Origin: Schizochytrium sp. TIO01
Lineage: Eukaryota > Sar > Bigyra > Thraustochytrida > Thraustochytriidae
Length of the DNA: 64,000 bases
Direction of reading: 5' to 3'
Assembly: GCA_004764695.1 (NCBI GenBank)
Contig: SMSO01000014.1
Coordinates: 5,338,845 to 5,402,844, forward strand
Positions 1 through 62,037 of the stretch are shown one piece after another. Each line of letters opens with the position of its first letter. Positions within the stretch are counted from its first letter, which is position 1. Both the position numbers and the translations under genes were made by a program. A model generated the notes under the pieces. The model ran no database searches. It saw only the letters and a list, made by a program, of their open reading frames with translations, and had not been told where the DNA came from.

Positions 1-1353
1 ATGGGCGATGACGGCAACATTGTTGTCCCCAACGACCCCATCATCCCCTTCATCGCTGGTGACGGTACTGGCCCTGATATCTGGAACGCCAGTGTCCGCG
101 TCTTCGATGCCGCCGTCGAGAAGGCTTACGGTGGTGAGCGCAAGATCGTGTGGAAGAAGGTCCTCGCCGGTGAGGAGGCCTTCCGCAAGACCGGTGAGTG
201 GCTCCCCGAGGCTACCCTTCAGGCCTTCCGCGACTACCGCGTTGGTATCAAGGGACCCCTCACCACCCCTCTTGGTGGTGGTATCCGCTCCCTCAACGTT
301 GCCCTCCGCCAGGAGCTCGACCTCTACGTGTGCCACCGCCCCGTGCGCTACTTCCAGGGTGTGCCCTCCCCCGTCAAGAAGCCTGAGCAGGTTGAGATGA
401 ACATCTTCCGTGAGAACACCGAGGATATCTACGCCGGTATTGAGTTCATGACTGGCACCCCTGAGGCCAAGGAGGTCTACGAGCTTCTCCAGAAGCTCGG
501 CGTTGCCAAGAAGGTTCGCTTCCCGGAGACCTCCAGCTTCGGCATCAAGCCCATCTCCAAGGAGGGTACCGAGCGTATCGTCCGCGCTGCCCTCGAGTAC
601 GCCATCTCCTTCAACCGCCCCAGCGTGACTCTCGTCAACAAGGGTAACATCATGAAGTTCACCGAGGGTGCCTTCGCTCGCTGGGGCTTTGCTCTTGCCA
701 AGTCCCCCGAGTTCCGCGACAAGTGCGTCACTGAGCGCGAGTCCTGGATCATCGGCAACCGCGACGACGGTGTGACCGACGCTGTTGCCAACGCCAAGCT
801 CCTCGAGCCCGGCTACGACATGATGACCGACGCCCAGCAGCAGGGTGCCGTCAAGGAGGTCGAGGAGACCCTCAACGCTATCTACAGCACCCACGGCAAC
901 GGCCAGTGGAAGAACAAGGTGCTCGTCCGCGAGGTTATCGCCGATATTGCCCTCCAGCAGGTCCTCACCCGCCCCAAGGACTTCTCCGTTGTCTGCTGCC
1001 CCAACCTCAACGGTGACTACCTCAGTGACGCCCTCGCCGCTCAGGTTGGTGGCATTGGCATTGCCCCTGGTTCCAACGAGAACCTCATCACTGGCCACGC
1101 CATCTTTGAGGCCACCCACGGCACTGCCCCCAAGTACGCTGGCCAGGACAAGGTCAACCCCTCCAGTGTTCTCCTCTCCGGTAACATGATGTTCAACTTC
1201 ATGGGCTGGACTGAGGCCGCTGACCTCATCATGAAGGGTATCGGCTCTGCCATCTCTGCCAAGCGCGTCACCTACGATTTCGAGCGCATGATGGAGGGCG
1301 CCACCAAGCTCAAGTGCAGTGAGTTCGGTGACGAGGTCATCAGCCGCATGTAA
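1..1353 (+). CDS. icd: NADP-dependent isocitrate dehydrogenase, bacterial homodimeric type (possibly 5'-partial)
   Basis: Oxidatively decarboxylates isocitrate to 2-oxoglutarate, making NADPH. The 450-residue frame follows the E. coli Icd pattern closely, not the usual eukaryotic NADP-IDH. Substrate-site residues are visible: S97 (the E. coli S113 equivalent) in GGGIRSLN, R103, R113, R137, Y144, K214, and metal-binding D339 and D343 in [13 protein letters not shown] specificity is supported by K378/Y379 in HGTAPKYAG and by Y425/R429 in VTYDFER, equivalent to E. coli K344/Y345 and Y391/R395. About 50 extra residues, roughly 240-300, sit between the KGNIMKF and EVIAD segments and are absent from E. 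coli. The first base of the window is the A of the ATG, so a longer N-terminus such as a mitochondrial presequence cannot be excluded. Codon use is very strongly biased to C/G third positions, suggesting high expression. Confidence 0.93.
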
Positions 1354-7531: not shown

Positions 7532-9718
7532 TTAAGGACGAGGGCCTCCGCACTTCAAGAGCCCGTGTCGATGAGAGAGGACCCCAAATGCGGTTCCGCA
7601 GGCTAGAAGAAGCATAGCATTACTCTGCATGGCAAATCCTGGGTCAGTTTGATGCGCTAGAAACCCAGTGCAGGATGCTCCTAGAAGCAGGCCAACATCT
7701 CCAGTTGTTCGCAAGAGGGCTAAAGCCTGTGAACGGTTTTCGCTTGGGACAATATCTGTCACATGAGCAGTAGGGGCCATTCCAAACATCGTTCCGCCTA
7801 GACTCCACATAGCGAGAATACCAAGCGCGGGAGTAATCTGCGTTGCCCAAGGAAACATGAACATGGCACTGGCAACAATAGCTGACGAAACGACAATTGC
7901 TGGTGGCTTACCGAACTTATCTGCGATAGCTGCAGAAGGTGGGGTACAGACCACCGAGACAGCCGAGGTCATGGCAAACACTCCGCCAACCTCCGCGGAA
8001 GAAAGTCCGAGCTCATCACGAACTAACATGAGGGGCAGCAATGTCATATAAGAACCACTCAGAGCTAGCCAGTACATCAAATTGATACCGAGTACAGAAG
8101 CAAACTGTTGGTCGGCAAGTAAAGGCCGCCATTGCCGCACAGTCTCGCGAATTTCAGATGCAAGAGTCGGGGTTGGCTTGTTTGGGTCAGATGGGGTATT
8201 GGGAACAGTTTCCACAAGAATCCGATGATTTAATGCCATAATCGCCAAGAAACTAGCCCCAACCATAGAAAAAGTCGCTGAGAGACCAACGTTATGCGCC
8301 AGGAAACCACCTACTGCGGGTCCTAGCGCAGCCCCTGCTGAAAACCCGGCAGATATAGGTGCCATAGTTTTTGTGCGCGTAAAAGGTGTACCAATATCCA
8401 TGAGATAAAGCATCGACGCAGTGGTAAACCCACTTGCTCCAAAACCAGTAATAAGACGCGCGAGCATAAGTTCAGGCAGATTAGATGCCAAACCTGTGCC
8501 GGCCATACCCAAGGCCATGAGACCAGCTCCGGCAGTCATGACTTTCTTGCGACCAAATCTATCACTAAGAAATGCGCATGGGATGTTTCCGAGCAGCTTA
8601 CTAAGACCAAAGGAGCTCACCACCATGCCGAAATCTGCAGAGGAGAGACCCATGCTCTTAACAAAAAGTGGCATAACCGGTATCACCACACCAACTGCAA
8701 CTCCGGTCATCACCATAGACAGGGTGACAGGCCAGACACGTGGGTCAACAGTACGAGCCATTCCAAGAATGACCTTGTCAAATTGCGCACGAGAAACACC
8801 TCCGTGCCCCTTGGTGTCAAGTTTAGCCATCAATTCGTCAGCAAACTGTGATATATCTCGATCTGACATCACTCGCTCCCGGTCATCACGGCGTCCGATT
8901 TCCCGAACGTAAGATAAAAGCTCATCATACTCCACGAGGCCGTTCTTGTTCTTATCAACACGGTCAAATACGCGACTGAGTTCATCCTTATTGAAGTTGA
9001 TCAGTTTAAAAAGGTCAAACACTCGTGCATTAAACGGTGTGTCGCTCCACTTTGTCTCGGGCAGAGGAACACGCTCCCGAGTCACACCTTTTGGTGTATG
9101 CGGCGGTTCAAGTCTATCTGAGAGAGTTGGGGAAAGTGGGGCCTGTTCGAGAGGGCTGGATGGGTTTGAAGCACTAGTATGGTTCAAAGGATCATCTTTA
9201 GGATGATCGGAACCTGGGGCAGCAGGTGTATCAGTACCGCAAGAGGGGATAGCATTTAAGGGTGCTGACTCTCTGTGTTGCAACGGTTTAGCCTCATTGT
9301 AGCGTGTTGATGTTGTTAATGTTGTTGAAGATGATGATGAAGATGTTGAGGGTGTAAATGGGGTACTGGGTTGCGCGGAAGTCGATGTTGGAGGAGAGCG
9401 TGTAGTTTTATGGATATTAGGGGGGGTACAGTCAGCTGGGGCCGAAGAAGGAGTCGGCAATAGCGTAGAAGATGATGCGTGAAAGGAATGTTGTAAATCG
9501 CGTGTTCTGCGCACTCCGGCGCAGCATGAAGAAGATGATGACGAAGAAAAGGTCCCAAGAAGAGGAAATTCAAGTTGGTGTGGCGTTGAAGAACCAAAGA
9601 CTCCGAAGGAGGGCCTCTGCGTAGCCTTGATCCAGCTTGTGAAGCCACGAGAGCTCTTGACGTGATAATAGTGGATGGTTCGGCCTGAAGAGATAATTGG
9701 GGTTGTGAAACTCATCAT
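7532..9718 (-). CDS. MFS transporter with N-terminal EF-hand domain
   Basis: A 728-residue major facilitator protein. Residues 1-220 are Ser/Thr/Pro-rich and low complexity; the first about 45, basic and hydroxylated with almost no acidic residues, could act as an organelle transit peptide. An EF-hand pair follows at about 235-320. Loop 1 (D255-E266, DKNKNGLVEYDE) is a canonical calcium loop, while loop 2 (D301-Q312) lacks the final acidic ligand. The MFS domain runs from about 328 to 720, with the TM2-3 signature LSDRFGRKKVM and about 12 hydrophobic segments. It resembles MFS_1/TetA-type transporters; substrate and direction cannot be read from sequence. The EF-hand suggests transport gated or tuned by Ca2+, which is inference. 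The start is the first of two consecutive ATGs. Confidence 0.9.
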   Translation of the reverse strand: MMSFTTPIISSGRTIHYYHVKSSRGFTSWIKATQRPSFGVFGSSTPHQLEFPLLGTFSSSSSSSCCAGVRRTRDLQHSFHASSSTLLPTPSSAPADCTPPNIHKTTRSPPTSTSAQPSTPFTPSTSSSSSSTTLTTSTRYNEAKPLQHRESAPLNAIPSCGTDTPAAPGSDHPKDDPLNHTSASNPSSPLEQAPLSPTLSDRLEPPHTPKGVTRERVPLPETKWSDTPFNARVFDLFKLINFNKDELSRVFDRVDKNKNGLVEYDELLSYVREIGRRDDRERVMSDRDISQFADELMAKLDTKGHGGVSRAQFDKVILGMARTVDPRVWPVTLSMVMTGVAVGVVIPVMPLFVKSMGLSSADFGMVVSSFGLSKLLGNIPCAFLSDRFGRKKVMTAGAGLMALGMAGTGLASNLPELMLARLITGFGASGFTTASMLYLMDIGTPFTRTKTMAPISAGFSAGAALGPAVGGFLAHNVGLSATFSMVGASFLAIMALNHRILVETVPNTPSDPNKPTPTLASEIRETVRQWRPLLADQQFASVLGINLMYWLALSGSYMTLLPLMLVRDELGLSSAEVGGVFAMTSAVSVVCTPPSAAIADKFGKPPAIVVSSAIVASAMFMFPWATQITPALGILAMWSLGGTMFGMAPTAHVTDIVPSENRSQALALLRTTGDVGLLLGASCTGFLAHQTDPGFAMQSNAMLLLACGTAFGVLSHRHGLLKCGGPRP

Positions 9719-24768: not shown

Positions 24769-25371
24769 CTCATTGGATTCGAAACCTTTCCAACCTAGGT
24801 TTCTCATAAAATTGGAGCCAAGCAAAAGACGCGAGGCATCCTCAGAAGTTAGACTAGAAAGAAGAGGACACGACAACAACAGAGGTAGAGGAAGATAATT
24901 TAAGCTCCCGAGACTTGGTTTCACGAAGATAACTTTGGTCCTTGAATTTGTAATCAGAGTCCTTCTTCAGACATATTAATCGATATTCTTAAATCACTGT
25001 ACTGACCTAAAAAGTCCGTCCGAAATAGATCAATTAGTCGATTACCAGGCGAGCAAACGGATCTTGGGATACTCACGAACAAAGAGGAGTAGACTCTTCT
25101 GATTCTAATTTGCACGCAGTTGTCAGATCTTTGATTGCTTCTCCAGTAAGTAACTGAAGAAGATTTACTCTTCATCTTCCGAGTTTTGAAGTTGGTTAGC
25201 TTGGAGCTTTTATCAAGTCCTTCTCCTGACGAGAGTTTTATTTTTGTGCACCAATTCTCCTCCACATAGAAACGTTTTGCTTCTTTTTTCCTGCTGACCA
25301 CGTGAACGAAAATAGTTCTGCCAAGAGTGGCTCAGCTTGAAGTTGAAGCTGCAGCCCAGCACATTACTACA

Positions 25372-26817
25372 ATGCTACCTTCTTCAGCTTCAGCATCGTC
25401 ATCCAACAAAGCGAATGGTAAAGAGCGGTCTGTCACCGGTCCAAACTCTCGAACGGTCCACGACGATGATACTTTAATGGTTCATGGACACGGCCACACC
25501 GACGAGAAGGGCGTGCCATCTACATCAACTTCATCCTCTGGGACAGGTGACGGTATCCCAGGAGCACCGATTCAACCTGGCCTTGGCGGAGGATCAAGGA
25601 AACGAAGACAAAAGCCACGTGGTCGCCCCCCAGATCGGGAAACCCGTGAGGAGTTCATTATTTCGCCAAGCGATAACATGAAGAGCGAGAGGGCCCAGTG
25701 TAAGCACTGCGCTTGGGAAAAGGCGTACAACCTTCCCCGCTTACGAAGGCACCTTGCCTCTTGTGGGGGATTCCGTCAAAAGGTTGGTCGTGACCGCGTC
25801 AAAGAGCTGTGCGAGCGCTGGCAGGTAAAAATCGACACAGGGGAGAGGACCGGATCGTCGCCTGGTGTTCAACCACCACCTGTAAAGAAGACTCGACTCA
25901 CACCGCTTGAGGATGAGGCGCGAGCTTTGCGGGTTTCGGCAACTGCATCACCAGGAGTCATGCCTCGACAACCGCAGCTCCACCACCCTCACGTCCAGCA
26001 GCAGCACCAGATCCACCACTCTCACCACCAAGCCCAGCAGCAGCAGCACCAACACCACATTCACCACGTACACCACCAGCCTCAGCAGCAAGTTGGCCGC
26101 CATTTGAGACCCGAAAAGGGCCTGGTAGGACAGGCTGCGCTCTCATACACCACCAAGACGCTGCAACAAGCACGAGTCGTCTCCATCATTCGAGCTGTCG
26201 ACCGCGACACAGCTGTGGAGCGTGCCTGCGATCTTGTGAAAAACTGTGGATGCCGTGCGATTGAAATCACCAGAGATTCTAAAGATTGGCTCTATGTGCT
26301 TAAGAGCGTAGTGGATAAGGTTGGAGACCAGGCTGTGGTAGGAGTTGGCACAATTCTTGATTCGGCTGACGTGGCAACTGCTGCTGGAGCTGGTGCAAAG
26401 TTTGCGCTAAGCCCTGTAAACCCACCCGGCTTCATTGATGCGTGTCTAAACTACGATGTTCTCCCTATTCCGGGATGTTACACTCCGCAGGAAATCTTTA
26501 ACGCAACCTCGGCTGGCGCGAACTTTGTGAAGATCTTCCCAGCACAGAGCTTTGGCCTTGACTCGCTTCGTGCTTTGCGTGGAATTAGCTACTTTAAGGG
26601 GGTTAACTTCCTTGCTACAGGTGGCATTGACGAAGCCCGGGCAAGAGAATGGTTTGCCGCAGGTTGCGCAGTAGTTGGTATGGGAGCCCTGATTTGTGGT
26701 GGCGATCTGGGAGAAAAAGACCCTTCTAGGGTTGCTCAACTTCGACAAGAGTATTTAGTCACACCTGGAGGTGGGAGAGAAAAAGCGAGGGGAATTCTTG
26801 ATAGGTTAGCTTTATGA
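25372..26817 (+). CDS. AT-hook/BED-like zinc finger protein fused to a KDPG/KHG-type aldolase
   Basis: A single uninterrupted 481-residue frame with two unrelated halves. The N-terminal half looks DNA-binding: a Ser-rich start, a basic AT-hook (KPRGRPP, 81-87), and a BED-like zinc finger with C110, C113, H127 and C131. A His/Gln-rich tract follows at about 200-245. The C-terminal half (about 260-450) is a class I 2-keto-3-deoxy-6-phosphogluconate aldolase barrel. The Schiff-base lysine K387 in FVKIFPAQ, the general acid/base E298 in AIEITR, the GVGTI strand, the SPVNPP loop and TGGI are all present, so the catalytic set looks intact. KDPG aldolase splits KDPG to pyruvate and glyceraldehyde-3-phosphate in Entner-Doudoroff metabolism. 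Here it might act as a metabolite-sensing domain of a regulator (inference). The frame extends to GTG 25327, but the first ATG is 25372. The last codons overlap the convergent NCX gene by 6 bp. Confidence 0.85.
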   Translation: MLPSSASASSSNKANGKERSVTGPNSRTVHDDDTLMVHGHGHTDEKGVPSTSTSSSGTGDGIPGAPIQPGLGGGSRKRRQKPRGRPPDRETREEFIISPSDNMKSERAQCKHCAWEKAYNLPRLRRHLASCGGFRQKVGRDRVKELCERWQVKIDTGERTGSSPGVQPPPVKKTRLTPLEDEARALRVSATASPGVMPRQPQLHHPHVQQQHQIHHSHHQAQQQQHQHHIHHVHHQPQQQVGRHLRPEKGLVGQAALSYTTKTLQQARVVSIIRAVDRDTAVERACDLVKNCGCRAIEITRDSKDWLYVLKSVVDKVGDQAVVGVGTILDSADVATAAGAGAKFALSPVNPPGFIDACLNYDVLPIPGCYTPQEIFNATSAGANFVKIFPAQSFGLDSLRALRGISYFKGVNFLATGGIDEARAREWFAAGCAVVGMGALICGGDLGEKDPSRVAQLRQEYLVTPGGGREKARGILDRLAL

Positions 26818-29705
26818 TGATGTTTCTAATGGGTTTGAAATGATTCCCTTGGTCTGCAATGCAGAAAGCAAAACATAGGCAATCCACAAAAAGATAAGAA
26901 TAACACATGAGACAATCTTGGCTCTCCGCGGGCCACCGAGTTCGCCGAAGCCCATTCTTCGGCGTGCATACATCAACGCAAAGTATATAACTGCAATAAT
27001 GCAGAAAATTAAGACGGAGAATGAAAGGTTGCCAGGCTTGACAATAAACTGCTCTCCGTGGGCAGCCTTGTAGACAGCGCCAATGACCCAGGGCAGACCC
27101 AAACCAAGGAATACATTGACAGAGTTAGATCCAGTCACATTGCCAATGGAGTTGTCGGCATTATCATCATTCTCTGCCGCCATCTTACTCGCGAATGTAT
27201 CTGGAAGTGAAGTGCCCAGAGCCACGAAGGTGATCGCAGTGACACTATTGTCAAGGCCGATGAGGCAACCAAAAATCTTTGCCACGTCTCCGACGACGAT
27301 GGTAATGATCAGAATGAATAAAAGCGAAACGAAGAAACTGAGCTTGCCGTTGTAGTAGGATGTGGGGGGAACAAGCGCGAAGAGCACCTTCCATCCAAAT
27401 GACATGATGTGTAATGCACAGTCAAGATTCGAAGCTTCGGCTCCATCTTCGCCCTGGACAGTCAGAACATTAATTAGTTGTTCCTTCCAACTTCCAGAAC
27501 CAACATCAACAGCTTCGAGATGAAGTCGCATAAGAGATGCGACACGATCTACAGTAGCCTTATAATTCTCGTCACTGGTAATGGTAATACTGTTCACGCG
27601 ATGCTCACCATAAATGGCTCCACATTCAGGAAAGTTAACAATTTCAAATTCTACTGCAAATGTTGAGTCACGCTCATACGTCTTATTGTCCATGATTGCA
27701 ACCTCAATGATAGCCTCGCGCACACCATGCTCAAAAATTAATGTGCCGCTAGCCTCAAGGTAGTCAGACCCTGATTTAGCACTAGCATCCTTTGTTTTAA
27801 ACTGCACCTTGATACGTCCAGCAATTCCATTCTTGCGAAGAACCTTGATGTGAGCAACTCCTCAGACTCACGAATGACCATAGCACTGTCTTCAAAAGTA
27901 AAAGTTCCGGGTAGATCATCATCTATGATAGTGACTTCTGCAGTTGAAAATGCAGAGTGCTCCAGGTCTACATTGTGGTCAGCACCCTTGACACTGAGAA
28001 CAACCTGGAAAGTTTCGTCAGGTTCATAAACGTTGTCATCAATGATATTGACTGTAATTGTCTTTTCCTTCTCCCCCGGCAAAAAGATGAGTTTGCCGTC
28101 CGTATGCTCAAAGTCTTCGCCGCCGCGTGCAGTACCACTGCGGGTCTCAAAGTACACCATTGAGATAAGCTGCAGCTCTTCATCTGTACCTGTGCGCATG
28201 ACTGGGAGCTCAATGAAGCCGGCATTTTCATTAACACAAAATGCATAGGCCGTGAAGGAAACACGAGGCAATGTCGCCGAGATGTTGGCTACAGTATTCT
28301 CCTCATCTAGAGGAGCATCCTCTAGAATAACTGGGGAGGTATTAGGTGCTTTGACAGCTCCGAGAGAGCCAAGACCAAGACGATCGAGCTCTGATGGAGT
28401 GTTTTGCGCAAATCGCTTGGTAGTATGGCGCTTGAGAAAATCGAGACGCTTAGAAATGACCGAGCGCCCGCCTGCTAGCTTACGTCGAGCATCAATGCGG
28501 TAGCGGTTGGCAGATGTACGATCCTTGAGAAGATCACTGGCTACAGCCTTGGCCATATCATCATCAGAAAGGCCTCGAGGCAGGGACTGAAGCAGCTCGG
28601 CAATTCGACCTTTCTCCTTGTCCTCCATTGTAATGACGCGTTTTCCCGCATGAGCCCCGCCAGTGGCAAACTCAGCGGCTGCTTTCGCGGCATCTTGCTG
28701 AGCTTCAGGATTAGAGCTATCGATGGAGAATTTGCGTCTGTCACGGAGGGCTGTATGGTTTGCTGTGTCGAGCCCAATTACGTGGCCTCCATCAGGACGC
28801 ACCTTGGCAGTGGCCGACTTCCCAAAGAGCTTGGCGAAGAGTCCCTTTGACTCCAAATAAGAAAGACCTACCAGGATGGGGAAAAGAAGAAATGTAATGA
28901 TAGCTTCATGAACGTCAACAACACCATCCTCGCCAAGTACAATGAGCATCCACACGTATGCAAACACAGAGAAAAAGCTAGTAATGATAAAAACGCCATA
29001 GTTTTCGATGACACGCTTCTCCCCCTCGGGAAGCGCAACAACACACACTGAGGTGATAACCAACAAGTTGAAAGCTGCACTACCAACAATGGTACCAGGT
29101 CCCAGGCCATCCTCTGGAGGTTGGTTCAAGGTGCCTACTGTTTCAACGATGGAGAGCAAAATTTCTGGCGCAGAACTTCCCAGGGCCATGAGAGTGAGGT
29201 TCGCAACAGTTTCATTCCATACTAAAACACGATGCTCTTCAGGCTCGCCATCTTCATTTTGCACAACGATGACTTTTTCTTTACTAGTAATAACTTCAAT
29301 TGCTGCCATGAAATGATCGGAAATAATTGCGACACCAAGAAAACACCATCCTAGAAAAAGGAGGTAAATTACAGCGCGGAGATGACCTGGCCACATAAAC
29401 TCATTGAGGAGGAAAGGGAAAATATAGTCACCCATGCACTCATCATACTCAACAGGACTGTCATCTTTTGGCACAAAAAGCATAAACCCCTGAGACATTT
29501 CGGCGGCATAAAGAGAGCAATTTATGCTGGGGTCACTGAGTGAACTGTTAATGATTTCTAAAGGAGTTGTTGTGCACAGATCTAAGCTGTCATCTAATTT
29601 GTTGAGATCCAACATTGCTCGTGCATTTGATGGTTGACTGGCCAGAAAACCAAGACACAGGCAAATGCCTGCCCAACGGGATACTTGTGTTGGGACTGGA
29701 ACCAT
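26812..29705 (-). CDS. Na+/Ca2+ exchanger (NCX/SLC8 type) with Calx-beta domains; one-base frameshift
   Basis: Plasma-membrane type exchanger that extrudes Ca2+ against Na+ influx. Read through, it would be about 964 residues, the usual NCX length. It has a signal peptide at 1-30, an N-terminal helix bundle with alpha-1 repeat (VANLTLMALGSSAPEILLS, about 167-185), and a cytosolic loop with two Calx-beta domains (about 495-600 and 610-710). The C-terminal bundle follows with alpha-2 repeat (FVALGTSLPDTFASKMAAEN). The frame breaks within the second Calx-beta domain near 27849. Upstream frame ends ...ESEELLT; the other frame resumes KVLRKNG... One missing base (ACA-N-TC-AAG) would restore the consensus. 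Nothing else is broken, so an assembly error is as likely as a young null allele. The ATG is at 29703-29705. Confidence 0.88.
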
Positions 29706-49342: not shown

Positions 49343-51425
49343 AGATGTATTATTATTTCTTTTTACTTTCTCGATTATGCTTGACTTTCTCCAGAGGTTT
49401 TATTCTCTTAAAAAAAATATATAAAAAATTAACGTTTAAATCTTAGAGAAAAGCTCCTTTCTTATATATCAAACTCGTAAAATGTATTTAAAAGGAGCAT
49501 ATGCCTAATATTTAGTAATATTTAATATTCATGGTCTCCTACATTTCATGGCCTTTTCTGGTGCAAGATGAAAAATACTGTTTGCAAAGGTTCACACGCT
49601 AGGTAAAGGTCGTTACGCAGACCGATTTCACTGAGACCGTCGTCACGAGGGGAATCCGCTTCTTAGTTATCTTTTTCTTCCCCTCCTCCCCCCCCTTTTT
49701 TTTCCCTTTTCTTTTCAAATAATGTTGAACAACAACAAAAAATGTATAAGCAAGAGAGCACACCAAGTAACAACGCTTTTTGATATTATAGTAGGAATGA
49801 TTAGAGACGAAAGGGAATGTGCTTTGATTTGTCTTGGTTTGTCTCGACTCGATCATTCTGGCCGAATATCCTCCCTCAAGTTCAATGAGCATGTTAATGT
49901 TGATGAGAAGATAGTTCATTTTAGCCTGTCAAATTGACGAGGTAGGTAGCGGAGACTTATTTGTCCTTCTTCAAAGTAACAGGATGCATTTCTTCTGCTT
50001 CTCTAAAATTAGAGAACTAAATAATGCACGAATTAATTATATTTCTGTTCATAAAGGTCACACGTGATAACAATGAATGTCCATTGCAATCGGGTAAACT
50101 TTCTTGCTGTTTTTTTGAATGGGATGAACAAAGGATAAACTCGCAATTTGATTTTGGCAATAATCCTTATACAGTTTGTTTACTTTTAGTGTCGGGAAAT
50201 TTCAAGAAATACATGAACGAACTTTCTTACTCAGAGAGATTGGTTTGGTTACCCGTAATATGTGAACTCTTTTCTTTAGAGAACGCTTGCAGTCATAGGA
50301 CCTCATCCAACACATGTTGTCAATCTTAAATTTTATGATGGCTTGGTTTTCAGCCGCATTGCCTTTTCCATTTATTTTGTAATTAATTTCTTAGGAGAAT
50401 TTTTAAATAATAAAAAAATCACAAAAGTGAAAAATTAAAAAGTTAATAAAACGGCAAGCGGTCCCAACAAATTAGTTTACGAAATAATAGATATTAAGTT
50501 TATCATCCGTAGCTGCTCGCATAAATTCAACAATCAGTATGCAGACCGATGAAGGCCACGCCTCCGCACCGCGAGCAAAGTTTCTGCTAGACTATGTTTA
50601 AGTCACGCAATAAAGACGTTTAGTCAAGAATCAAGGCATGACCCAAGTTTAGAATGTGAGCTGAACTTTTAAATGAATCATAGAGACTATGAAGGACCTT
50701 CTCGATGAAACTTAACTTTAGCCTCGCCGCGCGCCCGGGCTCGATTCAGAGTGCTAGGCCTTGGTCTGTTCGGGGATTTATTATTAAATTTGATAGCAGG
50801 CAGAACGCTTTGAAGACTATGTTATGAGAAAAAACATTGTTTCACGTTTGGTAACCTTTTCTACTCCTACCTGGTTTTTCCTTCTTTTCTTTTCTTCTTT
50901 CTTTAAAATAGAAAAATAATAATAAATGTGTCAAACTATCAGAAGTACTAAACGTTGAGTGCGACTTGGTACCGGATGGAGAATGGATTATTTGTTTCTG
51001 TTGCAAATATTTTGCGTCTTGATCAATTTGGTACTGTGATACAAACCATGATAATTAGACAATGTAAAAACAGTTCTTGACATACGTTCATGTCACTTGT
51101 GAGAGAAAGTTTTTGACAGAGGAGTTTGCGAGTGTTATCCTTAACATAGGTTTGCAGAGAGGCAAAGTCCTTATAAGTTAGTGTGCCATTGCTTAAAATT
51201 TTAAAATATTTTTTTCTATTACTAACAAATCATTTCAAGTATGAGAAACCATACTCTGTAAGCCATAAAACTTGTAAACACTGAAGACAGTTTCCTCAAG
51301 AAAACAATTAGTGACCTAACAAACCCCACTGGGATGGATGAAAATCAACGATTTCCGAGCAACCTTGATCAGCAAACCCCAAACTCCGGCGAAGACATTC
51401 GCCACATCTCAAAAACCTTTTAAGT

Positions 51426-51437
51426 GCCTTTAAAGGC
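51426..51437. promoter_or_regulatory. 12-bp perfect palindrome just upstream of the first YSL gene
   Basis: GCCTTTAAAGGC, 16 bp before the ATG at 51454. A related TTTAAGGCT lies at the same distance before the second YSL gene (about 59931-59939). It could be a regulatory site in the leader or simply conserved 5' UTR from the duplication. Confidence 0.3.
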
Positions 51438-51453
51438 TAAATATCTGTGCAAC

Positions 51454-53538
51454 ATGAACAACATGAGGAGCATCGTGAAAAACCCTGAGGGTAAAGTCGA
51501 GTCCGACATCTCAGGTCGCTTTGGCAGTGGAATCAGTGGAAATTCCCAGATTGAAGATGGCACTCTTAAGCCATTTGATGAAGAAGCCGAATTCCAACAT
51601 GCCATCGACTGGCGTGGCCAATTTACAGTTCGCGGCGCCATGGTTGGTGTCATTGTCGGCTTTGCCATGACTATCATTACTCTCAAGCTTAGTTTGACCA
51701 CCGGTGTGATCCCGTCCCTGAACATTTGTGCTGGTTTGCTTGGCTTCATTGGTGTCCGTTCCTGGGTTGGTATTATCTCTCGCTGGGTTTCCGATACTTA
51801 CAAGTTTACTCGCCAGGAGAACACCGTTATTCAAACTCTCGCCGTTGCTCAATACGGTACTGCGTGGATTCTTGGTTTTGGTTCCTACTACATTGCCATG
51901 GATGAGTCATCTTGGGAGAAGACCGGTGCTGATGCTGATCAAGAGAGCGAAATTGTGAACCCGCAATACAAGAACATCATTCCGTTTGCGTTTCTGGTTT
52001 GCTTTACTGGTATCTTTGTCCTCAACACTCTTCGCAAGACCTTCATCGTTGACATGAAGCTCACTTACCCATCCGGTACTGCAACTGCTGTCATGATTAA
52101 TCAATTCTTCACTGATGATGGCCAGGCTCTTGCGGAACGCCAGTTCGTCGTGTTTGGACGTTGGTTTGGAATCTCATTCTTCAAGGACTTCTTCTTTTGG
52201 TTTTTTGAGGGCGATGGCTCTTGTGGCATTGGAAACTTCCCTACCTTTGGTATGAAGGCTTACGACTGGGCATGGAGCTTTGATTTTGAAATTAACTACG
52301 TTGGTGTCGGTATGCTCTGTGGTCATGCGGTCAACTACTCAATGATGGTCGGTGCCGTCATGGGTTGGGGTATTATGTGGCCTGTTTTCACCCAAAAGGC
52401 TGGCGAGTGGTACCCTGCTGATGCTGGTAGCAGCAGTCTTGATGGTATTCTTGGTTACAAAGTCTTCCTCGCCATTGCCCTTATTATTGGCGACGGTATC
52501 TACAATGTTATCAAGATGGGTGTGCTTTCATACCAGAACTACAAGAACCACACTCGTGAAATTGAAGTCAAGGAAGAGTTTGAGACTGAGGAGGAAGAGC
52601 GCGAGGCCCGCCTTCGCCACCGTGTGTTTATGACCGACTCTGTCCCTTGGTGGGCTACCCTTGCCGGCTACATCTTCTTTGTCATCCTCGGTACTGCTGT
52701 GATGCCGGTTATCTTCCCTAGCACCCACTGGTTCATCCTCCTCGTTGCCTATCTTCTTATTCCCTTCTTTGCCCCGGCTAACGCCTACATTTGCGGTCTC
52801 ACTGATTGGGATATGTCTTCGACCTTCGGTAAGCTCGGTATCTTCATTTTTGCAATCTGGTCTGCTCAGGTTGACTCCAGCACTGGCATCATCTCCGGTC
52901 TTGCGACTTGTGGTATTCTTCTTGCGGGTACTTCTCAGGCCGCTACTCTGATGCAGGATTATAAGACTGGTTTTCTCACCCGTAGCAGCCCTCGCGCTAT
53001 GTTCATGGCTCAGATCTTCGGAACCCTCATTGGTTGCTTTCTCTCCCCGGCTGCCTTCTTTATCTTCTACAATGCCTTCGACGTTGGTGATGAGGATGGC
53101 GCATACCCTGCCCCGTACGGAGAAATCTACCGTGCCATGGCTATCCTCGGTACTGAAGGCTTTGGTGCTATGCCCGGTCACTGTGCTGCTATGATGCTTG
53201 CCTTCTTCCTCGCTGCCTTTGCAATGAACTTCACTCGCGATATGGCCCCCCGCTTTATGAGCGAGCGTGCCGCCTCCATTCTTGCCTTCGTCATTCCTAT
53301 TCCCGGTGTTATGTCGATTCCGTTTTATATCTCCGGCACTCTTGCTGTTGATATGGGCGTTGGCAGTTTGGTGAACCTCATTTGGAACTGGAAGGACCCG
53401 GAGAGCTTTCACAACTTCTACATCCCGGTCGCCTCTGGTCTCATTGCCGGTGATGGTATCTGGGCACTCCCCAGCGCTCTTCTTGCCCTCGGTGGCGCCA
53501 CCAGCCCTGTCTGCATGACCTGGTCTGCTAACTGGTAA
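51454..53538 (+). CDS. YSL-type oligopeptide transporter (metal-chelate transporter), copy 1
   Basis: A 694-residue polytopic membrane protein of the OPT superfamily, Yellow Stripe-Like branch. Plant YSLs import metal-nicotianamine or metal-phytosiderophore complexes by proton symport. Hallmarks: EEAEFQHAIDWRGQFTVRG before the first helix, MKLTYPSGTATAVMINQF (about 200-217), GLTDWDMSSTFGKLG, LMQDYKTGFLTRSSPRAM, and VGSLVNLIW near the end. About 14 hydrophobic segments are visible, with one long acidic/basic cytosolic loop (EEEEREARLRHR) in the middle. The frame extends up to a GTG at 51424; ATG 51454 (or 51463) is the likely start. Codon bias is strong. The metal and ligand cannot be read from sequence. 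Copy 2 lies 6.4 kb downstream on the same strand. Confidence 0.94.
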   Translation: MNNMRSIVKNPEGKVESDISGRFGSGISGNSQIEDGTLKPFDEEAEFQHAIDWRGQFTVRGAMVGVIVGFAMTIITLKLSLTTGVIPSLNICAGLLGFIGVRSWVGIISRWVSDTYKFTRQENTVIQTLAVAQYGTAWILGFGSYYIAMDESSWEKTGADADQESEIVNPQYKNIIPFAFLVCFTGIFVLNTLRKTFIVDMKLTYPSGTATAVMINQFFTDDGQALAERQFVVFGRWFGISFFKDFFFWFFEGDGSCGIGNFPTFGMKAYDWAWSFDFEINYVGVGMLCGHAVNYSMMVGAVMGWGIMWPVFTQKAGEWYPADAGSSSLDGILGYKVFLAIALIIGDGIYNVIKMGVLSYQNYKNHTREIEVKEEFETEEEEREARLRHRVFMTDSVPWWATLAGYIFFVILGTAVMPVIFPSTHWFILLVAYLLIPFFAPANAYICGLTDWDMSSTFGKLGIFIFAIWSAQVDSSTGIISGLATCGILLAGTSQAATLMQDYKTGFLTRSSPRAMFMAQIFGTLIGCFLSPAAFFIFYNAFDVGDEDGAYPAPYGEIYRAMAILGTEGFGAMPGHCAAMMLAFFLAAFAMNFTRDMAPRFMSERAASILAFVIPIPGVMSIPFYISGTLAVDMGVGSLVNLIWNWKDPESFHNFYIPVASGLIAGDGIWALPSALLALGGATSPVCMTWSANW

Positions 53539-58138: not shown

Positions 58139-59949
58139 CAAACGTTGCTGGAGAAAGGATAAGGTTTCGTTCGAAGTCTGTAGATAAGTCTATTTTCATC
58201 CAAATCTTGACTCGTGCTTGCAACTAGGTCACAATGAGATATTGTTCGTAGACATCCAACTTCCTCTCAAGCTATATCGATACATTAACATCAAGCAAAG
58301 AAGATGACTCTCTCCTAACTCTCTCCATCCCAATCGTAGTCTCACTGCTTCTTACTTTTTAATGTCTATCTACTCATAATTTTACTATTTTTTTAATTTA
58401 TTTTTTTGCCATTAAAAACTATTATAGTTTATTTCCAGCTGAAAACTTCGATCATGCCCAAAATGGATCCTAGGTAACCATTAGTTTATAGCACTTAAGA
58501 CTACATATAACTGAAAATTTTAAGGCACGGAAGAGAACAAGGTCGTCGACTCCGAGTTTCCTGCAATGTAAATGCGAAATCAAACTAATAATTGTGGCAT
58601 GGATGAACTTACTATCACAAGAACATGATTTCTTTTAGAGCGCACAGTAAAATTAACAAAAGTAATTTATTGAAAAATACTTAATTAAAAAACGAATTCT
58701 TGTTTCATTTTTTAAAATAAATAGAACAATAATAATATTTTAAAATTAAAATAAATGCTAAAAGGCAATTAGATTGATACTTACTACTCAGAAAAGCCCA
58801 TATGAAACTTCCAGAAGCGAAGAGCTCAATAACTTCACCAACTAAAGCTTAGCAATCTTTTCAAAGTTAATGTTCCCTAGGGGAATGTAAAGGATTGCGC
58901 GTTTGGTCTGTCAAAGCGTTTCCCTTTGTTCTTTTACACTTTTTTAGTCTAGCGTTTCAAGAAGAGGTCGAAGAATCGGAACTGTGACTGTCTTCGGTCG
59001 AAAAGACCATGAAAGAAACAGAGGTTTGGGACACTGCCGCATGCCCAGGGTTGGAGATAGAATGACCAGGCTAACTAAAGTAAGCATGACATGTAGCTGC
59101 GCCCTAGAGAAATTAAGTAGCCTCCCTCGTGATTGTTTCCAGGATATAAGTGAAGATAGGCTCATAACATCCATGATAAACGACCAAGCTGCCCATCACG
59201 GTATGAATTGATTAATAGTAACCCAGCGCAAAGTCGCAATTGTTCAGGGGAATAACATCGAAATGAAAGGGGGGTTCAACCACGTGAAGACAAATGATCG
59301 TCTTCCTCTAAGTTTGCGATGGTTTGAGTTGAGGTTGGCTGCACGTAAAGAACAGTGATCGAAAACCCAAATTCATTTCTTCTTCTGCTCTTATTTTAAA
59401 TTTTCAAAATTCAATTTAAAAAAATAAAAATAAGAAGAAAGTAAGAGCTTTGTCTGACAAAATCATGGCCGTCAGTTAAGACAAGACACAACTCAATATG
59501 AGAGATGTTCAAGGAAAAAATAAACCAGAAAATCAAAGAATAGAAACACACGAGGGCGGTAAGAGAGCGAAAAGGCACCTCCACTACGTAGACAACGACT
59601 TGATGAAAACAGGTGAGAGGATAGCATTGTTCCGCAGTGTACTCTCTCTGTTGCAAATAAAAGAAGGTAACACTCTAAAGCGCACTGGATGCGTGTTCTC
59701 TTTTAAAAGTTTTGGTCCATTTGAAGAAAAGCACAGGAAGCAACTGTACTACAGACGCAAAGCATAGCTAGCAACAAAGACGCTAACAAATTGGGAAAGA
59801 CAGCATTTGCAAGTTCTTGCTAACCCAAATCCAAAACCCAAACTCGAAACCCCGACTCCAGCTTGCTCGACTACCAGTCGTGGTTCTAGCCATATTAAAA
59901 AAATAACCCTTTGTGCAGCTTGCCTGCACTCTTTAAGGCTGACAAAACT
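53539..59949. other. 6.4-kb spacer between the two YSL genes
   Basis: AT-rich, no recognisable intact gene. Short open frames (54651-54872, 55881-56270, 57552-57812, plus strand) have no motif I can name. Contains a (TA)n run near 58106. If the YSL pair arose by tandem duplication, this spacer is where other duplicated or lost material would lie. Confidence 0.55.
58106..58135. repeat. (AT)n dinucleotide microsatellite
   Basis: About fifteen AT units, flanked by further ATAT-rich sequence. Confidence 0.9.
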
Positions 59950-62037
59950 ATGAATATGAATAAAGGTATCATCAACAATCCCCTGGGTAGGGTTGAGTCT
60001 GACATCTCACATAAAACAGATCCATTTCTACCTGAGGCAAGTGAAGCAGAGCAAGGTCTTGCGCAGCCCTATGATGAAGAAGCTGAGTTTCAGCACGCCA
60101 TTGATTGGCGAGGCCAGTTTACTTTGCGTGGAGCTTGTGTTGGTGTCATCGTCGGCTTTGCGATGACTATTATCACTCTCAAGCTCAGTCTTACCTCTGG
60201 TATTATCCCATCATTAAACATTTGCGCTGGATTGCTTGGTTTCATCGGTGTCCGTTCATTTGTGGCCATTATCTCTCGATGGGTTTCAGAGACATACAAG
60301 TTTACTCGTCAGGAGAACACTGTTATTCAAACCCTTGCTGTTGCTCAATACGGCACTGCGTGGATTCTTGGTTTTGGTACCTACTACATTGCCATGGATG
60401 AACAGTCTTGGCTCCTTTCTGGTGCCGACCCTGATCAAGAGAGCGAAATTGTGAACCCGCAATACAAGAATATCATCCCGTTTGCTTTTCTTGTTTGCTT
60501 TACTGGTATTTTCGTTCTCAACACTCTTCGCAAGAACTTCATCGTTGACATGAAGCTTACTTACCCATCCGGTACTGCAACTGCTGTAATGATCAACCAA
60601 TTCTTCACGGAAGATGGTTCAGATTTAGCTCACAGGCAGTTCGTTGTGTTTGGGCGCTGGTTTAGTATTTCCTTCATCAAGGACTTTTTCAACTGGTTTT
60701 TCATGGGCAATGGCTCTTGTGGTCTTGACATCTTCCCGGTTTTCGGAATGACGGCTTATGATGCTTCCTGGAGTTTTGACTTTGAAATCAATTATATTGG
60801 TGTCGGAATGCTTTGTGGCCATGCGGTCAACTACTCAATGATGCTCGGTGCTATCTTGGGTTGGGGTATTATGTGGCCTGTTTTCACCCAAAAGGCTGGC
60901 GAGTGGTACCCTGCTGATGGTGCTAGTAGTCTAAATGGTCTTCTTGGTTACAAAGTCTTCCTCGCCATTGCTCTTATTATTGGTGATGGTGTCTACAATG
61001 TTATCAAGATGGGTGTGCTTTCATACCAAAACTACAAGCAACACATTTCCCGTGAAGAAAAGCTTGATCAGGAGACCTTTGAGTCTGAGGAGGAAGAGCG
61101 CGAGGCCCGCCTTCGCCACCGTGTATTTATGACCGACTCTGTCCCTTGGTGGGCTACCCTTGCCGGCTACATCTTCTTTGTCATCCTCGGTACTGCTGTG
61201 ATGCCGGTTATCTTCCCTAGCACCCACTGGTTCATCCTCCTCGTTGCTTATCTTCTTATTCCTATCTTTGCCCCGGCTAACGCCTACATTTGCGGTCTCA
61301 CTGATTGGGATATGTCTTCGACCTTCGGTAAGCTCGGTATCTTCATTTTTGCAATCTGGTCTGCTCAGGTTGACTCCAGCACTGGCATCATCTCCGGTCT
61401 TGCGACTTGTGGTATTCTTCTTGCGGGTACTTCTCAGGCCGCTACTCTGATGCAGGATTATAAGACTGGTTTTCTCACCCGTAGCAGCCCGCGCGCTATG
61501 TTCATGGCTCAGATCTTCGGAACCCTCATTGGTTGCTTTCTCTCCCCGGCTGCCTTCTTCATCTTTTGGGATGCTTTTGATATTGGCGCCAAGGATGGTC
61601 TTTATGAAGCTCCTTATGGTGTTATTTACCGTGCCATGGCTATTCTTGGTACCGAAGGCTTTGGTTCTATGCCCCAACATTGTCCTGGATTGATGCTTGC
61701 CTTCTTCCTCGCTGCCATTGCCATGAATCTTATTCGCGACTTGGTGCCCCGTTGGCTTGGTGAGCGTGCCACTTCAATTGTACAATTTATCATTCCTATT
61801 CCTGGTGTTATGTCGATTCCGTTTTATCTTTCCGGCACTCTTGCTGTCGATATGGGCGTTGGTAGTTTGGTGAACCTTATTTGGAACCACTACTCTTCTC
61901 AAAGCTTTCACAACTTCTACATTCCGGTTGCATCTGGTCTCATCGCTGGAGATGGTTTGTGGGCACTTCCCAGCGCTCTCCTCGCTCTTGGAGGTGCCAC
62001 TAGCCCGGTTTGCATGAATTTCACCTCTAACTGGTAA
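59950..62037 (+). CDS. YSL-type oligopeptide transporter (metal-chelate transporter), copy 2
   Basis: A 695-residue paralogue of copy 1 with the same OPT/YSL hallmarks: EEAEFQHAIDWRGQFTLRG, MKLTYPSGTATAVMINQF, GLTDWDMSSTFGKLG and LMQDYKTGFLT. The proteins differ mainly in the first about 40 residues, the central cytosolic loop (this copy has HISREEKLDQETFES), and the extracytosolic loop after the conserved block (WDAFDIGAKDGLYEAPYG). A 477-bp stretch, 61085-61561, is almost identical in DNA to copy 1 while neighbouring coding DNA differs at many synonymous sites. The frame is open to a TTG at 59911, but ATG 59950 matches the copy 1 start. Divergent loops suggest partly different substrates or regulation (inference). 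Confidence 0.94.
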   Translation: MNMNKGIINNPLGRVESDISHKTDPFLPEASEAEQGLAQPYDEEAEFQHAIDWRGQFTLRGACVGVIVGFAMTIITLKLSLTSGIIPSLNICAGLLGFIGVRSFVAIISRWVSETYKFTRQENTVIQTLAVAQYGTAWILGFGTYYIAMDEQSWLLSGADPDQESEIVNPQYKNIIPFAFLVCFTGIFVLNTLRKNFIVDMKLTYPSGTATAVMINQFFTEDGSDLAHRQFVVFGRWFSISFIKDFFNWFFMGNGSCGLDIFPVFGMTAYDASWSFDFEINYIGVGMLCGHAVNYSMMLGAILGWGIMWPVFTQKAGEWYPADGASSLNGLLGYKVFLAIALIIGDGVYNVIKMGVLSYQNYKQHISREEKLDQETFESEEEEREARLRHRVFMTDSVPWWATLAGYIFFVILGTAVMPVIFPSTHWFILLVAYLLIPIFAPANAYICGLTDWDMSSTFGKLGIFIFAIWSAQVDSSTGIISGLATCGILLAGTSQAATLMQDYKTGFLTRSSPRAMFMAQIFGTLIGCFLSPAAFFIFWDAFDIGAKDGLYEAPYGVIYRAMAILGTEGFGSMPQHCPGLMLAFFLAAIAMNLIRDLVPRWLGERATSIVQFIIPIPGVMSIPFYLSGTLAVDMGVGSLVNLIWNHYSSQSFHNFYIPVASGLIAGDGLWALPSALLALGGATSPVCMNFTSNW

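Follow-up and report, generated by a model that had tools for sequence, protein, structure and literature searches.

Does one gene of the thraustochytrid Schizochytrium sp. TIO01 join a DNA-binding-like front end to a KDPG-type aldolase, and if so, what might such a protein do? The question comes from a first-pass annotation of the window (the whole 64,000-nucleotide stretch of contig SMSO01000014.1 that was analyzed), which had described an AT-hook and a zinc finger fused in one uninterrupted frame to an intact aldolase. The frame stands as described: it is a single ATG-to-stop frame of 481 codons, and C110, C113, H127, C131, E298, and K387 all lie exactly where they had been numbered. The parts of the encoded polypeptide, together with the neighboring genes mentioned below, are collected in Table 1.

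The genome searched comprises 64,063,054 bases in 37 contigs, and the contig that holds the window measures 7.46 Mb. An 18S primer sequence for labyrinthulomycetes, GGGATCGAAGATGATTAG, is found at four places in the genome (reversed control, 0), and the neighbors in the window are eukaryotic in kind, including a DEAD-box helicase and an AAA ATPase with a proteasomal ATPase OB domain. It is therefore very unlikely that the locus belongs to a bacterial contaminant. The aldolase ORF and the exchanger ORF on the opposite strand lie tail to tail, with a 6-base overlap at 26812-26817. With no room for an intron at its break, the exchanger either has a broken frame or carries an assembly indel.

Table 1. 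Features of the aldolase-fusion ORF and of other genes in the window (positions are those of the window).
Feature	Residues	Position	Strand	Basis or remark
Aldolase-fusion ORF	481 aa + stop	25372..26817	+	ATG-to-TGA frame without interruption
Ser/Gly-rich stretch	1-75			
Basic stretch with RGRP core, AT-hook-like	76-89	25597..25638	+	NLS-like by eye
BED/C2HC-like finger (putative)	90-132	25639..25767	+	ligands C110, C113, H127, C131
Spacer	166-200			
M197	197	25960..25962	+	last ATG in any + frame 5' of the aldolase; a shorter isoform may begin here
His/Gln-rich linker	201-246	25972..26109	+	composition (H or Q 31/46), tandem repeats
KDPG/KHG aldolase domain	262-455	26155..26736	+	E298 and K387 at catalytic positions
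Na/Ca exchanger with Calx-beta domains		26812-29705	-	two overlapping frames, break near 27860
Class 3 7TM receptor domain + PBP_like_2 periplasmic-binding-type domain	1186 aa	15723-19283	+	single frame
MFS transporter frame		7532-9718	-	EF-hand region ahead of transporter domain
Two OPT oligopeptide transporter genes		51424-53538, 59911-62037	+	about 6 kb apart

The C-terminal half is, by its sequence, clearly a complete class I KDPG/KHG aldolase. It matches PF01081, the Pfam family of Eda and DgoA, over model positions 3-194 of 196 (E 4e-29; 101.8 bits against a cut-off of 27.8), and it shares with that family the GT, FP, and GG motifs as well as the catalytic Lys and Glu. Thus, the description of this half as an intact KDPG-type aldolase was borne out. 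In the NCBIfam scan, the eda model TIGR01182 gave E 1e-35 and 123 bits, which is under its curated cut-off of 156.05, and the other aldolase models listed were likewise under theirs. Among PDB sequences, 2v81, a 2-dehydro-3-deoxy-6-phosphogalactonate (KDPGal) aldolase, matches best (E 2.4e-24); KDPG/KHG aldolases account for the other strong matches, together with designed or fusion proteins that include such an aldolase. Identity to 42 aligned relatives is 29-39%.

Conservation was assessed in an alignment with 34 prokaryotic rows drawn from the best 80 aldolase loci, in which a column was called conserved at 85% or above. The aldolase half agrees in 30 of the 36 conserved columns, with R274, E298, T327, P348, K387, F389, T416, G417, and G418 among the residues kept; the six departures are K304, I328, L346, Q373, N384, and I405. 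K387 corresponds to the Schiff-base lysine and E298 to the catalytic glutamate, with the Arg, Thr, Pro, and Phe residues at the substrate site and the GG pair at the phosphate. T416 is the Thr found in 29 of the 34 rows, in a column that is Val in the DgoA row and that we assume to separate KDPG from KDPGal aldolases. Position 439 was counted against the reading favored below: it is Ala, whereas 23 of the 34 rows have Ser, three Gly, two Thr, and six a gap. Ala is also found there in one plasmid row. Overall, the aldolase half is predicted to be catalytically competent.

This is the sole locus above the PF01081 cut-off in a six-frame profile search of the Schizochytrium genome. A second candidate, below the cut-off at E 0.016, lies within an ORF that resembles IMP dehydrogenase by eye and was rejected. 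No close donor of the aldolase is apparent among the viral, plasmid, and best 80 prokaryotic matches: one search of viral contigs returned nothing and another a single match at 29%, the 245 plasmid records are all below 60% identity with none spanning 80% of the query, and the best 80 matches in prokaryotic genome contigs have 28-38% identity. The first start codon lies fewer than 50 codons ahead of the aldolase match in 71 of these 80 loci (median 9 over all 80), and the finger pattern precedes the aldolase in none. The remaining nine loci have 53-172 codons ahead of the match, but all have an ATG 5-20 codons before it; given this nearby ATG and the absence of the finger pattern, the extra length was taken as spurious upstream reading. 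Compared with its family, the Schizochytrium frame adds a finger-bearing front end of about 250 residues.

Both PF00920 genes found in the genome are of the DHAD type: their ilvD scores of 745.9 and 754.8 bits exceed the cut-off of 618.15, whereas on the edd model they reach 238.8 and 241.7 bits, far under the cut-off of 708.25. These two genes adjoin at C4:1414131 and 1417405, and their C-terminal halves are near-identical by eye. An EDD-type 6-phosphogluconate dehydratase was not found in the six-frame, exon-by-exon PF00920 search of the genome; this agrees with a report that eukaryotes lack EDD (PMC10847513). The DHDPS family (PF00701) has three matches at two places, on contigs C24 and C10, and the copy at C24:5735294-5736142 types as DapA. 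The copy at C10:123245-124092, whose first 20 letters are the same as those of the C24 copy, is in two frames with matches 5 bases apart. Three loci match PF13378. One is a cis-3-hydroxy-L-proline dehydratase and another an enolase; the third (L109) is closest to galactonate dehydratase but far under that cut-off (64.8 against 311 bits), so that a galactonate-type route is a possibility only. Because the genes found for the EDD/DHAD family are DHAD-type and the typed DHDPS gene is DapA, the aldolase substrates likely come from side routes and not from the classical Entner-Doudoroff pathway. Hydroxyproline-derived 4-hydroxy-2-oxoglutarate would be a plausible substrate.

The front half likely contains a zinc finger, to judge from its ligand spacing and from the families it resembles. 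BED zinc fingers have the ligand pattern C-x2-C-xn-H-x3-5-H/C, and AT-hooks have a GRP core with basic residues on both sides. Here, C110, C113, H127, and C131 form C-x2-C-x13-H-x3-C, which fits the BED ligand pattern, and the basic stretch contains KPRGRPPDR. When the segment was scanned alone, zf-BED (PF02892) scored 14.1 and 15.9 bits (E 0.05 and 0.013), under its curated cut-off of 20.6, and zf-C2HE (PF16278) scored 15.3 and 16.3 bits (E 0.027 and 0.013), under its cut-off of 30.1. The C-x2-C ... H-x3-C ligands are common to the segment and both families (BED and C2HE/C2HC), but the alignments are partial, covering only profile positions 11 to 41 (of 44) in PF02892 and 33 to 59 (of 63) in PF16278. 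No zinc finger family was listed in the Pfam scan of the full-length protein, and the AT_hook family was listed neither there nor in the scan of the segment. Thus, the proposed AT-hook and zinc finger survive as an RGRP core and a ligand pattern but not as profile assignments, and the domain search of both halves that the first-pass annotation had called for gives a clear aldolase and a finger that is below cut-off and seen in the segment-alone scan only. "BED" is a label of convenience here, and "AT-hook" stands for the core motif only. A single-sequence AlphaFold model of the finger, with a pLDDT of 60.9, three helices, and no strand, is too poor to settle the matter. The zf-BED profile has five matches in the genome, none at the aldolase-fusion locus; a profile for the hAT dimerisation domain has no match in the genome, but as its control also had none anywhere, the hAT result is uninformative.

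Relatives of the front half were sought in several collections. In its own genome it matches itself and one further place at E 0.43 with an internal stop, so that there is no second copy. Viral contigs hold no relative, the seven pattern matches there all being unrelated, and none was found in phages, PDB sequences, or PHROGs. Elsewhere in the genome, the full protein matches one protein only, in its His/Gln tract; the C-terminal end of that protein is bHLH-like by eye. The linker also resembles TFIIA weakly (Pfam E 0.36; PDB E 0.069), which was taken as low complexity.

We tentatively favor, at a little under an even chance, one catalytically competent pyruvate aldolase that carries a basic tail with a CCHC finger and is probably nuclear. 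What the DNA itself shows is one open frame, the arrangement of the parts along it, and an aldolase that keeps its catalytic set. Weighing against this reading are the finger scores, which lie under the cut-offs and vanish in the full-length scan, the zf-BED genome search that lists other loci only, the one fixed-ligand shuffle that also matched a zinc finger (see below), the poor finger model, and the lack of relatives of the front half in the collections searched. The polypeptide would run from a Ser/Gly-rich tail through a basic AT-hook-like stretch, a CCHC BED-like finger, and a flexible His/Gln linker to the class I aldolase. The front half may bind DNA: the basic region and the finger would direct the protein into the nucleus and anchor it to DNA or chromatin. 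KDPG aldolases are homotrimers in known relatives, and an aldolase trimer would carry three tails per particle, which could thereby raise its affinity for DNA. The tethered aldolase would still cleave KDPG/KHG-type pyruvate aldols.

Alternatively, the locus may encode a plain orphan pyruvate aldolase whose leader is disordered and specific to the lineage. The CCHC pattern and RGRP would then be chance products of a tail rich in Arg, Lys, and Ser, and this tail would not bind DNA. We consider this unlikely, if well worth weighing. The sub-threshold finger and AT-hook would be expected of such a tail, as would its weak codon signal (see below), and orphan aldolases have a precedent: plants without EDD are described as keeping broad-substrate plastid EDA orphan aldolases (PMC10847513), so that they, too, are eukaryotes with EDA but without EDD. 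The soybean EDA, however, has a transit peptide and is chloroplast-targeted, unlike the finger-fronted fusion (PMC10847513 for soybean). Chance also fits poorly with the ligand pattern, which at strict spacing arises in just 0.13% of residue shuffles of residues 1-197 and 0.78% of those of residues 1-257 (0.8% and 3.4%, respectively, at loose spacing). Among residue shuffles, 1.65% contain RGRP and 5.1% the looser [RK](x)GRP. Moreover, a 63-residue core of the segment matched two of the 24736 Pfam families, at E 0.013 each and below cut-off, and both are zinc fingers aligned to the same residues. Nine shuffles of this core with Cys and His held in place gave no match in seven cases, an unrelated family at E 7.4 in one, and a different zinc finger at E 0.04 in one. 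Also against a chance tail, Lys or Arg make up 24 of the 90 residues at 76-165, with RGRP adjoining the finger.

A metabolite-responsive transcription factor, which the first-pass annotation had suggested, appears quite unlikely. In it, the aldolase fold would serve chiefly as a sensor, and keto-acid binding or Schiff-base formation would alter DNA binding by the finger and AT-hook, by analogy with the MocR regulators. These combine a DNA-binding domain with an aminotransferase fold as sensor (PMC5320631, PMC6677901), and the fusion has a similar order of DNA-binding-like part, linker, and enzyme fold. The likeness is one of architecture only: MocR/GntR-type proteins are bacterial, with a winged helix and a PLP fold, and a regulatory role for the fusion would be an extension of that analogy. 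A His/Gln tract is also present in the bHLH-like protein of the same genome, and with no EDD-type partner found there is no obvious need for bulk catalysis. Set against these points, the finger is sub-threshold, and the catalytic residues are kept, which a pure sensor would not require. A eukaryotic one-component regulator, in which a finger/AT-hook tail on a live aldolase trimer would let pyruvate-aldol flux set transcription directly on chromatin, seems likewise quite unlikely.

Whether the two halves form one gene bears on the tailed aldolase that we favor. An in-frame stop at 25303 lies 5' of the ATG, and it is the only stop in the ORF frame between 25301 and 26157, as against 7, 11, 11, 9, and 9 in the other five frames. 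Second-order Markov models left the 262 codons open in 53 of 20000 runs when built from this stop-poor segment and in 0 of 20000 when built from the whole window. An independent aldolase start near 26000, raised in the first-pass annotation, is now narrowed to a sole candidate, M197 at 25960: after it, no further ATG occurs up to 26250 in any + frame and the aldolase profile begins at 26155, so an unspliced aldolase starts no nearer than M197, which precedes the His/Gln linker. Such a protein would thus include at least that linker. The ORF has no splice donor of the form GT[AG]NGT, although weaker donors may exist.

Codon statistics are less favorable, and the weak signal of the front half was counted against a single tail-aldolase protein. 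Over residues 1-240, the ORF frame is the best of six in one of six windows and the best of the three forward frames in four of six. In the aldolase part it is the best of six in all four windows of residues 281-440, but not in 241-280 or 441-480. The whole ORF scores -0.06 bits per codon; reference coding windows average +0.34 and wrong frames -0.45. Synonymous-codon preference is absent from all three parts of the ORF, aldolase included (-0.10, 0.01, and -0.07; reference genes, -0.06 to 0.42). The skewed amino-acid composition of the front part may explain some of this weakness. The 12 reference genes comprise 11 long single frames and the broken exchanger; since they were picked from long open frames, they show only that long unspliced genes are common here. 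A gene-model artefact, in which a hidden intron, an assembly error, or a start at M197 parts a finger gene from an aldolase gene, is to us the least probable explanation. In its favor are the weak codon signal ahead of the aldolase and two conserved genes of this assembly (the exchanger near 27860 and the C10 DHDPS copy) whose frames break with no gap large enough for an intron. Against it stand the missing GT[AG]NGT donor, the linker that an unspliced aldolase would still need from M197, and a finger part without an in-frame stop of its own on which to end. We infer that the front end and the aldolase are made as one protein.

No family that joins such a finger to a KDPG aldolase was found in Pfam, NCBIfam, PDB-sequence, or literature searches, in agreement with the original remark that no described family of this kind was known to its author. 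Within the openly licensed literature searched, "KDPG aldolase" and "zinc finger" were never mentioned together; co-mentions of "phosphogluconate aldolase" and "zinc finger" included none on a fusion by title or start of abstract; and "phosphogluconate aldolase" with "chytrium" led only to a paper on amphibian bacteria. A KDPG-aldolase fusion appeared in no title among the matches listed. The sought terms are also absent from the main text of papers on an oomycete fusion (PMC2705460), stramenopile glycolysis (PMC5715807), and the Aurantiochytrium proteome (PMC12221091). The protein appears to pair a known enzyme family with a partner new to it, a combination absent from the libraries searched. 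If it is one protein, this eukaryote, in which an EDD-type dehydratase was not found, would carry its sole clear KDPG-type aldolase on a DNA-binding-like tail. It would then offer a eukaryotic case in which the direct coupling of a metabolic enzyme to DNA could be tested, and it would provide a reason for keeping an orphan bacterial-type aldolase.
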